From the IMG/VR virus record IMGVR_UViG_3300045974_000129, positions 1 through 30,791 of that record: DNA of 30,791 bases; one strand, 5' to 3'. The position numbers were made by a program, and so were the translations under genes. The stretch comes from a virus. Below, in pieces: positions 4,358 through 30,642 of the stretch; position 1 is the first letter of the stretch; every line of letters begins with the position of its first letter. The notes beneath the pieces were generated by a model. The model made no database searches and was not told where the DNA came from. It saw nothing but the letters and a program-made list of their open reading frames with translations.

Positions 4358-5626
4358 ATGGGCATTCTTAATGACGTAGGTGGCGCAGCCCAAGGATCGC
4401 TAGATAATTTCTTGGATTCTCTCCCGAATCCATTCAAGACTAAAAAAGTACCGAAGAGATTTGCTCCAGACTTTCTGGAAGGCTTCATTATCACCGAGTT
4501 TGAAAATGGTGTTGAGAAATCAAACGCTGACAATTTCGGACTCGTTTTAAAAGGACATCAACTTCCGTTCCAGCCGTTCCCATTCGGTGGCGAGCAGAAG
4601 ATCGTCAAGGATTACTACGCTGGAAATCCAGAGCCAGTCGTGCAGGTTCTTGGGCCACGAGAGAGCGAAGTAGTCATAAAAGGTCGTCTGAAGGCAAAGG
4701 CGTTCAGCAACAAACTAGAAGATAAAGATGCTGCTGGATCTATGTACCGAGTTCCGATTGCGATCCAAGAGCAGATGGATGCGATCAGACTTCGTGGAAA
4801 TCTACTGAGATTGAATCTCGGAGAGTGGGAGCGGTTCGCATTTCTTGAGAAGACTCACTTCGAGTTGAATCAAGTCTCTCGAATCGATTACGAGCTTACG
4901 TTCACGATCATTGGATTCAACAAGCCTACAAACTGCAAGTTCACTGACAGAACGAAGCTGATACCATTTGATGACAATAAAGCTCTGATCGCTGCGGCGA
5001 ATGCTTTCATCACCAAAGGTCCACCAGACAACATGCCAAAGAGCCTGTCGTTGCTTCTTGGTAAGGCGATGAGCGATGTTTTCGGAGCTGTCAGCCTGGT
5101 CACGAACTTCGTTGATACGACGGTTCGCTCTGCTGAAGATGTCGTTTCAACTGTGAACAGAGTCAAAGGCGTGATTCTAAACGCGCGCGCAACGATCTCG
5201 AAATTCAAGAGAAGCGTTCGCGGTATCCAGCTTTCGATCGAGAGCTTGGGGAGCACGTTCACCAATAAGAATGGTGGCCTGGGAACTAACGTCAGAACAG
5301 TTCTTGGAGTGGATAACAATCTCCCGACTTCGCAAAAGAAGTCTCTACTGACGACGAGCACTTACTCAAACACGGCGTACATCAACAGCGCGGTTTCTCA
5401 GACGAAGGTTCTGTCTCAAATCCTGGCAACGATGCACAGCAGGTTTGACCAGCTCTCCAAGTCTACTCCGCTTCTTCGGTACTCTGTCAAAACTGGCGAC
5501 ACGCTTCAGAAGTTGTCGATCAAATATTACGGTGTGGCTGATAGCTGGAACAAGATTTACGATCACAATAAATTGAGCACGACTGTCTTGGTGGTTGGAA
5601 GCATCTTAGAGATTCCAAGGCTATGA
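4358..5626 (+). CDS. LysM-domain baseplate/tail protein (XkdP- or Mu gpN-like)
   Basis: The 422-aa product starts immediately after the tape-measure TAA with no spacer. The last 50 residues form a LysM domain: RYSVKTGDTLQKLSIKYYG, then the W-NKIYDHN and ILEIPRL strands. LysM binds peptidoglycan, and in PBSX- and T4 gp53-like proteins it occurs in baseplate components that bridge hub and tube. Residues about 40-170 form a strand-rich domain (VLGPRESEVVIKGRLKAKAF, ERFAFLEKTHFELNQVSRI) typical of baseplate hub-adaptor or DNA-circularisation-N families. The position between tape measure and gpD-like hub is that of XkdP in PBSX and gpN in Mu. The exact family is inferred from context. Confidence 0.85.
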   Translation: MGILNDVGGAAQGSLDNFLDSLPNPFKTKKVPKRFAPDFLEGFIITEFENGVEKSNADNFGLVLKGHQLPFQPFPFGGEQKIVKDYYAGNPEPVVQVLGPRESEVVIKGRLKAKAFSNKLEDKDAAGSMYRVPIAIQEQMDAIRLRGNLLRLNLGEWERFAFLEKTHFELNQVSRIDYELTFTIIGFNKPTNCKFTDRTKLIPFDDNKALIAAANAFITKGPPDNMPKSLSLLLGKAMSDVFGAVSLVTNFVDTTVRSAEDVVSTVNRVKGVILNARATISKFKRSVRGIQLSIESLGSTFTNKNGGLGTNVRTVLGVDNNLPTSQKKSLLTTSTYSNTAYINSAVSQTKVLSQILATMHSRFDQLSKSTPLLRYSVKTGDTLQKLSIKYYGVADSWNKIYDHNKLSTTVLVVGSILEIPRL

Positions 5627-27602: not shown

Positions 27603-27641
27603 AGCACAATGTTACTCATCACCTTTCATCGGGGGCGTTAC

Positions 27642-28484
27642 ATGTTACAAGTTCAAAAAGCGTTAGAAGCAGAAGGTTTTTATCCAGATCAGATTATCGC
27701 TGACGGTAAAATCCACAGATTTAAAAAAGATTCGTCCGACAAAGGCAAAAGTGCGTGGAGTATTTGCCACCAGAATCACTCCGACAAAGGTGAGGTGTTT
27801 TACGTCGCGATTTGGGGCGACTGGCACAATCCAGATCAAGAGTTCAAGTTCATCACGTCGTTTACTCAAACGAAGTACGATCGCAAAAAAATCGAAGACC
27901 AGCTCGAGAAGGCAGAGAAGGCTCGAAAAATCGAGCAAGAACGCGCGTGGCTCGCTACTTCGGAAGAATGCACCAAGAAGTGGGAAGAACTCTCCACTGA
28001 CCTAAAAGAAACCGAGTACTCAAAACGCAAGAAGCTGTCGTCACTCTTTGGATGCAAAACTCAGTTCGATGGCCACGGTCGTCCGATCTATGTCCCCGTG
28101 ATGGACATCAATGGTAAAATTTGGGGTCTGCAAAAAATTCAAGATGATGGACAGAAGTTCTTCATCCCTGGAACAAAAAAGAGCGGGAACTTTTACGTCG
28201 TTGGAGGAGATCTAAAGAATGAAGAAATCATATACATCGCTGAAGGATTTGCGACGGCGTGCTCTATTAGCATGGCTCTCGGTAAGCCTTGCGTGGCTGC
28301 TTTTGATGCTGGAAATCTCGCTCCAGTGGCGAAGGTATTACGCTCGAAGTTCAAAGAGGCGCGCTTCGTTATCTGCGGAGACGATGACACAGAAACAGAC
28401 GGAAACCCAGGAAGAACAGCCGCAGAAAAGGCAGCTAAAGATGTTCTTGGAAAAGCGGTATTTCCAAAGTTTTCGAGAAATTGA
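27642..28484 (+). CDS. Toprim-domain DNA primase (N-terminal part of split primase-helicase)
   Basis: I choose ATG at 27642, six nt after GGGGG; an upstream ATG at 27609 lacks such a signal. The 280-aa protein has an N-terminal part typical of phage primases (LEAEGFYPDQIIADGKIHRF), a helical linker (about 80-130), and a Toprim core: E201 in IIYIAEGFATA and D247/D249 in VICGDDD. It ends GKAVFPKFSRN at a stop abutting the HNH gene. Related primases continue past this point into a DFNDLH-type segment, which here begins the downstream helicase gene. Confidence 0.85.
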   Translation: MLQVQKALEAEGFYPDQIIADGKIHRFKKDSSDKGKSAWSICHQNHSDKGEVFYVAIWGDWHNPDQEFKFITSFTQTKYDRKKIEDQLEKAEKARKIEQERAWLATSEECTKKWEELSTDLKETEYSKRKKLSSLFGCKTQFDGHGRPIYVPVMDINGKIWGLQKIQDDGQKFFIPGTKKSGNFYVVGGDLKNEEIIYIAEGFATACSISMALGKPCVAAFDAGNLAPVAKVLRSKFKEARFVICGDDDTETDGNPGRTAAEKAAKDVLGKAVFPKFSRN

Positions 28485-28961
28485 ATGGAAAACTTTTTAT
28501 CAAAGATCGACAAGACTTCTTGTGGTTCTTGCTGGATTTGGACTGGCGCTAGAAATCAAGATGGATATGGGAAATATGCTGGATCGAGCAATTTTGACAC
28601 TACTTATGCTCATCGCATTTCTTTTGGTTTAGCGAATGGATTTCTGCCGCCCTATCCTGAGTTTGAACTAGATCACACATGTAGAAATCGCGCGTGCGTG
28701 AATCCATCTCATTTAGAGGTTAAGACGCACCATCAAAACGTGCTTATTGGGCATCTTGGTAAGACTGTGCGTGCTCGTCAAATCGCTAAAACTCATTGTC
28801 CATCTGGACATCCATATGACGAGAAAAACACGTACACAGCTCCATTAGTTTACAAACAAAACGGCAAATTTAAATCTTACGTTCCTAGTAGACACTGCAA
28901 AATTTGTAAGTTAGCGGCTCACAAAAGATGGCGAGCAAGAAAAAAGGCGTTACATGAATAA
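28485..28961 (+). CDS. HNH endonuclease, probable homing-type insertion
   Basis: The 158-aa protein is a free-standing HNH nuclease: SCWIWTGARNQDGYGKY, then LDHTCRNRACVNPSHLEV with D63-H64, N73 and H76 forming the HNH core. A C-terminal region (CPSGHP, RHCKICK) may bind zinc or DNA. The gene abuts the primase stop and overlaps the helicase start by 8 nt, with a 5-bp direct repeat TGAAT at each end (28482-28486 and 28955-28959). No space exists for an intron core. Confidence 0.9.
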   Translation: MENFLSKIDKTSCGSCWIWTGARNQDGYGKYAGSSNFDTTYAHRISFGLANGFLPPYPEFELDHTCRNRACVNPSHLEVKTHHQNVLIGHLGKTVRARQIAKTHCPSGHPYDEKNTYTAPLVYKQNGKFKSYVPSRHCKICKLAAHKRWRARKKALHE

Positions 28962-30642
28962 GTTAAGCGATTGGAACGATCTTCATTGTCTGGAAGGTCT
29001 TGAAGTAGTCCGTAATCAGATCGCAGGAATCCAGCCCGAAGTGAGTCGTGTCATTCCACTTGGATATTACGAGGACACTTTTTACTACATCACGAGTTCA
29101 AACCGGCAGATCATCCCAGTGCTTTCTGCTTCTCACGTCGAGACAAAATTCCTAAGCATGATGCCGATGCGTTATTGGGAGTCTCAATACCCTGGCAAAA
29201 TCGGACCAGACTACAAAAAAGCCACTGGTGAACTCATGGACGCGTGCAGATCTGCTGGCGTGTTCAAGCCGCGTCGCATTCGTGGCGGTGGCGTTTGGTT
29301 TGAAGAAAAGCATGGCGTCGTCGTAAATCTCGGAAAGAGTCTTTACGTTGGTGGCAAGAACGCGGAGCTGAACAGCTTCAAATCGAAATACACTTACACG
29401 ATCGCGCCAGACAACGAGATCCACGAAAATCCATTGACGGTTGACGAATGCGCGCCGCTCATTACGATTTTGGATTCTCTTCGATGGAAAAAGCCAGAGT
29501 TCTCAAAGTTCTTAGCTGGCTGGCTCATCGCTGCGCCACTTTGTGGGATGCTCCCATGGCGACCACACGTTTGGCTCTTAGGACCTCCTGGCTCTGGAAA
29601 GTCATGGATCATGGAGCATCTGGTGGCCATTTTGTTTGGCGAGAACAAGACTTACGTCCAAGGCTCGACTTCTGAGGCTGGAATCCGTCAAAGCATTGGC
29701 AGTGACGCCATGCCTGTCATTTTCGACGAGTTCGAGACAGATGACCAAAAATCAAGCGATCGCGTCAGATCTATTCTTGAATTGATTCGTCAGGCTTCAT
29801 CTGAGTCTGAGGGTTCTGTCGTGAAGGGGTCGGCTGGCGGAAAATCCATTCAATTTCAAGTCAGGTTCTCTGCGATGGTCGCTTCCGTTCGTTTGAACCT
29901 CGAGCGTGAGCAGGATCGCACTCGGTTCACGATCTTGGAGCTTCTACGTCCAGATGGTGACGAGACAAAGCAGTTTAGAGAGCTTCAGGAGGCTATTGCG
30001 AAGCTCCCGCCAGATTTCGGAGCTAGACTCTTCTCAAGGTCCGTTCGCATGGCTCAAGTCATCCTGGCTAACCAGAAGCTATTCCATGTGGCTTTGTCGG
30101 AACGGTACAACGCAAGGTTTGGTCAGCAGTACGGGACGTTGCTCGCTGGATATGCCTCTCTCATCTCTGACTTCGTTTTAGGTCCAGAGGAGATCGATGG
30201 CATCATTGATTCGATTGACCTCAGTGAAGAGAGCGAGATCATCAATGAGCGCGATGAAGGAGACTGCCTTGAGTTTGTGATGCAGAAAATTATTAAAGGC
30301 GTGGATCTATTCCAGGGTGGCAAGGTCGATCGGTCAGTTCGAGAGCTTGTGATGATGGCGATGGAGAAATCCGAAGAACGAAACACGCTTTCTAGATACG
30401 GATTTAAGTTCATCGAAAAAGACCAAGTGTTGTTCGTCGCCAATAAGCATCCAGAATTGTCAGCTTTGTTTGCTGGTACAAAATGGTTGTCCGGTTGGAG
30501 AAAAGCTCTTGGCGGGATCGATGGTGCAAAACCTTCAAAAGATCCAATTTGGATGAATGGAATGCCAACTAGAGGCATCTTAATCCCGATCGATAAAGTC
30601 GCGCATTCGCCTTGGAAGACCAAAAATCCTTACAAAGCGTAA
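28954..30642 (+). CDS. Replicative P-loop helicase (C-terminal part of split primase-helicase)
   Basis: A 562-aa protein with Walker A GPPGSGKS at 210-217 and Walker B VIFDEF at 255-260, in the style of primase-linked SF3/DUF927-type helicases. Arg candidates lie downstream (REQDRTRFTIL). The first 25 residues, LSDWNDLHCLEGLEVVRNQI, look like the missing end of a Toprim primase (DFNDLH..GLE.VR.QI), so start codon and preceding stop seem to be supplied by the HNH insertion. It is the last complete gene of the window. Confidence 0.85.
   Translation: MNKLSDWNDLHCLEGLEVVRNQIAGIQPEVSRVIPLGYYEDTFYYITSSNRQIIPVLSASHVETKFLSMMPMRYWESQYPGKIGPDYKKATGELMDACRSAGVFKPRRIRGGGVWFEEKHGVVVNLGKSLYVGGKNAELNSFKSKYTYTIAPDNEIHENPLTVDECAPLITILDSLRWKKPEFSKFLAGWLIAAPLCGMLPWRPHVWLLGPPGSGKSWIMEHLVAILFGENKTYVQGSTSEAGIRQSIGSDAMPVIFDEFETDDQKSSDRVRSILELIRQASSESEGSVVKGSAGGKSIQFQVRFSAMVASVRLNLEREQDRTRFTILELLRPDGDETKQFRELQEAIAKLPPDFGARLFSRSVRMAQVILANQKLFHVALSERYNARFGQQYGTLLAGYASLISDFVLGPEEIDGIIDSIDLSEESEIINERDEGDCLEFVMQKIIKGVDLFQGGKVDRSVRELVMMAMEKSEERNTLSRYGFKFIEKDQVLFVANKHPELSALFAGTKWLSGWRKALGGIDGAKPSKDPIWMNGMPTRGILIPIDKVAHSPWKTKNPYKA

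Follow-up and report, generated by a model that had tools for sequence, protein, structure and literature searches.

In Aeromonas phage Aeh1, the free-standing HNH homing gene mobE splits nrdA, an essential gene of replication metabolism, in a functionally critical region, leaving two adjoining polypeptides with no intron or intein, and the split NrdA enzyme is active (PMC2988022). Homing genes also lie between the halves of replication genes in T4, where mobA is found at the gene 60/39 topoisomerase, and in phage 25, where seg43 is found at gene 43 (PMC2988022). Such 'genes in pieces' are rare, and so far comprise mainly a few genes of T4-like phages. Dassa et al., in 2009, reportedly described fractured genes with split inteins, in which an endonuclease gene separates the two parts of a broken replication gene.

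Here we analysed a 30.8-kb virus record (IMG/VR IMGVR_UViG_3300045974_000129; the whole of this stretch is referred to as the window), in which an HNH gene stands between a TOPRIM primase and a helicase. The locus resembles Aeh1 nrdA/mobE in both its free-standing HNH gene and its two adjoining polypeptides, and it resembles the T4 and phage 25 loci in the placement of a putative homing gene between the halves of a replication gene. The comparisons described below indicate that a homing-type HNH gene probably entered a once-fused primase-helicase gene and divided it, within the TOPRIM domain, into a pair of adjoining genes. The uninterrupted form of this gene, fused and without an HNH gene, is gp23 of Bdellovibrio phage phi1422. 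No description of an HNH-split primase-helicase was found in the literature searched.

Organization of the split locus

The three genes are placed at the right end of the window, all on the plus strand. The primase half (27642..28484) comprises the N-terminal region and the first ~70% of the TOPRIM domain, and matches Toprim_3, phrog_2249 and phrog_35358. It is followed by the gene for an HNH (His-Me finger) endonuclease of 158 aa (28485..28961; HNH_3 and phrog_826), and by the helicase half (28954..30642), which carries the remaining, C-terminal part of the TOPRIM domain and then an SF3/MCM-like AAA+ helicase (phrog_35358 and phrog_2249). An NCBIfam search with the primase, HNH and helicase proteins gave no match. 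Other genes of the window include those for baseplate J, a LysM-protein and an amidase, as well as a replication block with YqaJ, AAA_24, a DEAD helicase and VRR-NUC, the last being a weak match. The window has 14 occurrences of the hexamer CGTTAC where 8 are expected, a mild excess.

The primase frame ends with the residues AVFPKFSRN and the stop codon TGA, and the HNH frame begins immediately (TGAATG). At its other end the HNH frame overlaps the helicase frame, which opens with MNKLSDWNDLHCLEGLEVVRNQI, by 8 nt. The HNH frame evidently supplies the gene boundary, with its ATG directly after the primase stop and the codons of its basic C terminus overlapping the new helicase start. The initial annotation, which was made from this DNA alone, had proposed the HNH gene as the source of the new stop and start context, and the two contacts bear this out. 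The HNH and helicase starts are preceded by weak Shine-Dalgarno matches (-3.0 and -3.7 kcal/mol, respectively, against a random median of -2.7 and a 25% point of -3.9), so that stop/start coupling is the likely route of their translation. The nrdA and mobE genes likewise overlap, and coupling was proposed for them in a review of T4-like homing genes (PMC2988022). An exact 11-mer, GGCGTTACATG, is common to the primase start (27634-27644) and the helicase start (28946-28956), and is positioned identically relative to the ATG in both; the region of the helicase start may be a copy of that of the primase, or both may carry a leader motif in common.

Two further contigs carry this arrangement. L002 (IMG/VR contig 3300045973_000309) differs from the window by 1 mismatch in 7838 nt, and L003 is a different virus with a primase-HNH-helicase gene order identical to that of the window. 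Since L002 is near-identical and L003 has the same gene order, the split cannot be put down to misassembly of a single record. The helicase start of L003 has a better Shine-Dalgarno match (-6.4), and coupling may therefore not be general.

Uninterrupted relatives and the position of the break

In about 20 distinct IMG/VR loci with the same TOPRIM-helicase pairing, a count that excludes L015 and L016 as both are without the TOPRIM part, the two parts are encoded in one frame. In the fused junction, FPxF is separated from the downstream D[FW]NDLH by a variable linker that is short, mostly of about 8 residues; the junction reads FPQF-VKTEYKSDT-DFNDLH in phi1422 gp23 (DNA primase, 838 aa), which is 37.5% identical to the proteins of the window in the primase part and 34% in the helicase part. 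A single protein of roughly 840-910 residues is found in Serratia MQ-4 and Bordetella PY223 as well as in phi1422. Uninterrupted relatives, including phi1422 gp23, L007, L009 and L014, align across the junction. The claim of the initial annotation that an HNH gene splits a primase-helicase was thus upheld in the main, with nearly all relatives having one gene, although 'polyprotein' was the wrong word, the fused product being one two-domain protein.

Within this pairing, a split was seen in only two distinct viruses, that of the window and L003, and in both an HNH gene occupies the exact point of the split; HNH presence and the split co-occur perfectly, in these two viruses only. No relative with this pairing had its genes separate in the absence of an HNH gene; such splits occur only in other primase-helicase families. 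A wider scan of primases gave 112 classifiable loci, some contigs being counted twice. The primase frame continues for >250 residues in 103 of the 112, showing that FPKFS is not a normal primase end, and D[FWYI]ND follows within 30 residues in 91 of the 103. The nine non-fused loci are those of the window's virus and of L003 (two each), L171/L172, L178, and the differently built L179 and L291.

L171/L172 (ATATGA overlap, L171:5762-5777) and L178 (GTATGA overlap, L178:3118-3130) are split at the same linker with no insert. Their primases pair with other helicases, in more distant families, and the near relatives of L171/L172 (L173-L176) are fused. On these comparisons, the linker of TOPRIM primase-helicases is evidently a recurrent fission point, and one that tolerates fission. 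In L038 an unrelated 90-residue frame (L038:4241-4510) lies between a CHC2-type primase and a helicase, near the same junction. The isolated helicases of L039 and L065 and the partial primases of L015/L016 were rejected as another kind of split. Among genome contigs, a single-sequence scan gave no relatives, and a profile scan (80 loci) gave no HNH match and no case of this primase half standing as a gene of its own beside the helicase.

We then used the Toprim_3 profile (Pfam) to place the break. The match of the window primase (5e-9) covers only positions 2-67 of the 95 in the profile, whereas four fused relatives match positions 2-93, which indicates that the break lies within the TOPRIM domain. 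The same primase matches positions 37-293 of phrog_2249 and the N-terminal part of phrog_35358 (DNA primase), and residues 2-29 of the helicase match positions 298-325 of phrog_2249, right after the part found in the primase. This match confirms the earlier reading of the helicase start as the continuation of a TOPRIM primase, the first ~30 residues of the helicase (DWNDLHCLEGLEVVRNQI) being the C-terminal TOPRIM end. PHROG families 35358 and 2249 both model the primase and the downstream part as one protein. The helicase has Walker A (GPPGSGKS) and Walker B (VIFDEFE) motifs and matches the C-terminal part of phrog_35358 (6e-126), and the predicted fold of a fused relative matches the SCCmec Cch helicase.

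The catalytic motifs are intact on both chains, and the primase half keeps the TOPRIM residues E201, D247 and D249. Residues D291, N293 and D294 of phi1422 are nearly invariant and lie beyond the split point; because the break is within the Toprim_3 domain, these D-x-N-D residues, now on the helicase chain, would have to act in trans. In the predicted structure of phi1422 the split point corresponds to a block (281-290) predicted at low confidence, with a pLDDT of 65 and no secondary structure, between a strand (275-277) and a helix (292-299). The break evidently falls exactly in the loop that leads from the last TOPRIM strand to the D[FW]NDLH helix. The insertion may be tolerated since only a loop breaks, and the missing helices could dock in trans.

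The inserted segment as first drawn, and as aligned with fused phi1422 and other relatives, spans 28482..28959 (plus strand). Its removal (478 nt) does restore SRN-KLSDWNDLH in frame, as the initial annotation had stated. Removal of 28482-28953 (472 nt) is equally in frame, and gives SRN-MNKLS-DWND with a linker of 8 residues, the commonest length among the fused relatives as counted from the alignment. With two in-frame removals possible, the true borders of the insert are uncertain by several bases, about +/-10 nt. The TGAAT said to flank the segment is present at both edges (28482-28486 and 28955-28959), but lies within the removed stretch and not outside it. The 40-nt ends of the insert share at most a 5-base match, which was equalled in 985 of 1000 shuffles, so that a TGAAT target-site duplication was rejected as being at chance level. 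In L003, a 15-nt direct repeat whose copies differ by one mismatch, AAATGATAAATAAAT / AAATGAAAAATAAAT (L003:4640-4654 and 5074-5090), is present at the two ends of the HNH gene, with 6 of 1000 shuffles as good; this repeat could have been left by the insertion, or be a mere likeness of two A-rich start sites.

Acquisition of the HNH gene

The HNH protein of the window matches HNH_3 (7e-9) and the HNH family phrog_826 (5e-37), and all residues invariant in 47 HNH relatives are kept (C16, W17, W19, H43, D63, H64, C66, C71, H76, N85, C105 and H109). Its predicted fold (pLDDT 88.6) gave the homing enzymes I-PpoI and I-HmuI as the best PDB matches, both weak (E 0.02-0.1), and no PDB sequence was matched by the HNH profile. 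At 40.9% GC, the gene falls within the lowest 0.13% of equal-sized segments, and in both the window and L003 the GC and GC3 of the HNH gene are below those of neighbour genes.

Identity between the window and L003 is 55% for the HNH proteins, compared to 39% for the primases and 46% for the helicases; the best match of the window HNH other than that of L003 is 43% identical. The two HNHs are sisters (SH-aLRT 99) in a tree of 80 phage HNHs, and among these 80 loci a primase-helicase of this type adjoins the HNH gene only in these two viruses. The tree path between the window and L003 is 1.24 changes per column for the HNH, against 1.96 for the interrupted genes. This likeness of the HNHs and the very low GC of the HNH gene of the window fit site-specific homing. 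In the primase-helicase tree, on the other hand, the two split viruses each have fused neighbours, L007 for L003 (96/93) and L008/L012/L013 for the window (83/86), and this disagreement between trees suggests a transfer of the HNH gene between alleles by homing. Over the first conserved codons past the helicase start, codon identity between the window and L003 is somewhat above average, with too few codons for a coconversion trace.

Forcing both split viruses into one clade costs 20 log units, with an AU p of 0.0525 for the primase-helicase and 0.118 for the helicase alone. Because one clade is not firmly rejected (p 0.05-0.12), homing transfer is suggested and not firm. The same p values, and the sister relationship of the two HNHs, would also agree with a single ancestral insertion and vertical inheritance, with later precise losses or old divergence and no active homing now. 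We consider this rather unlikely, since each split virus stands beside fused ones in the best trees, the HNH is less diverged than its neighbour genes, and the nuclease motif residues are intact.

It is also conceivable, but improbable, that the gene split first, through a frameshift or stop that produced overlapping cistrons (ATGA), and that the HNH gene settled later in the existing boundary. The linker tolerates fission, and the HNH-free fission in L171/L172 and L178, together with the unrelated frame in L038, means that the HNH gene may have entered an already split gene. Free-standing homing genes often lie between genes, and the order of events is likewise unsettled for phage 25 gene 43, whose split may predate its nuclease (PMC2988022), an order possible for the window as well. 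However, the split cases without an HNH gene have different helicases, and within this pairing every locus without an HNH gene is fused and both split loci carry one.

That the HNH gene lies within a self-splicing intron or an intein, with one primase-helicase still produced, is very improbable even though phage introns commonly carry HNH genes and split genes often read as exons, for example in the phage phD2B terminase (PMC4246154): the 477-nt HNH frame occupies the whole 472-478 nt insert and so leaves no room for a ribozyme, Rfam gave no group I intron either at gathering level or with E up to 5, the primase frame of the window stops (TGA) ahead of the HNH gene, the three frames are all different in L003, which excludes an in-frame intein, and each half comes to an end only a few residues from the break, with nothing extra that could form a split intein. 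Intron and intein readings were rejected, as far as sequence allows, on the Rfam result, the TGA stop and the L003 frames.

Insertion of a homing-type HNH gene into a fused primase-helicase gene would proceed as follows. Close to the D[FW]NDLH codons, the HNH enzyme would nick or cut the primase-helicase gene that is still whole in co-infecting relatives, and recombinational repair would then copy the HNH gene into that allele. The primase half, the HNH and the helicase half would be co-translated via stop/start coupling, and the two polypeptides would come together as a functional TOPRIM domain and primase-helicase, in the manner of NrdA in phage Aeh1. More tentatively, and with rather less than even confidence, we propose that a site-specific HNH lineage may spread among the primase-helicase genes of distant phages by cutting the fused allele of competitors, with the TOPRIM domain reassembled in trans and its D-x-N-D residues contributed by the helicase subunit.

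Relation to other genes in pieces

Essential enzymes that evidently withstand being broken in two by a homing nuclease, with no splicing involved, have seldom been documented. Two distinct split viruses and many fused relatives make split-domain reassembly, as well as homing into a replication gene, directly testable in this family. In comparison to mobE of Aeh1, the window has another gene (a TOPRIM primase-helicase), another HNH gene and another virus group, and the activity of its split enzyme and cutting by its HNH are predictions. The genes and the nucleases also differ from those of T4 mobA and phage 25 seg43 and, unlike the fractured genes with split inteins, the window is without a split intein. 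The locus thus adds to the 'genes in pieces' associated with homing genes, and what is new in it is the host gene and the location of the split within a catalytic domain.
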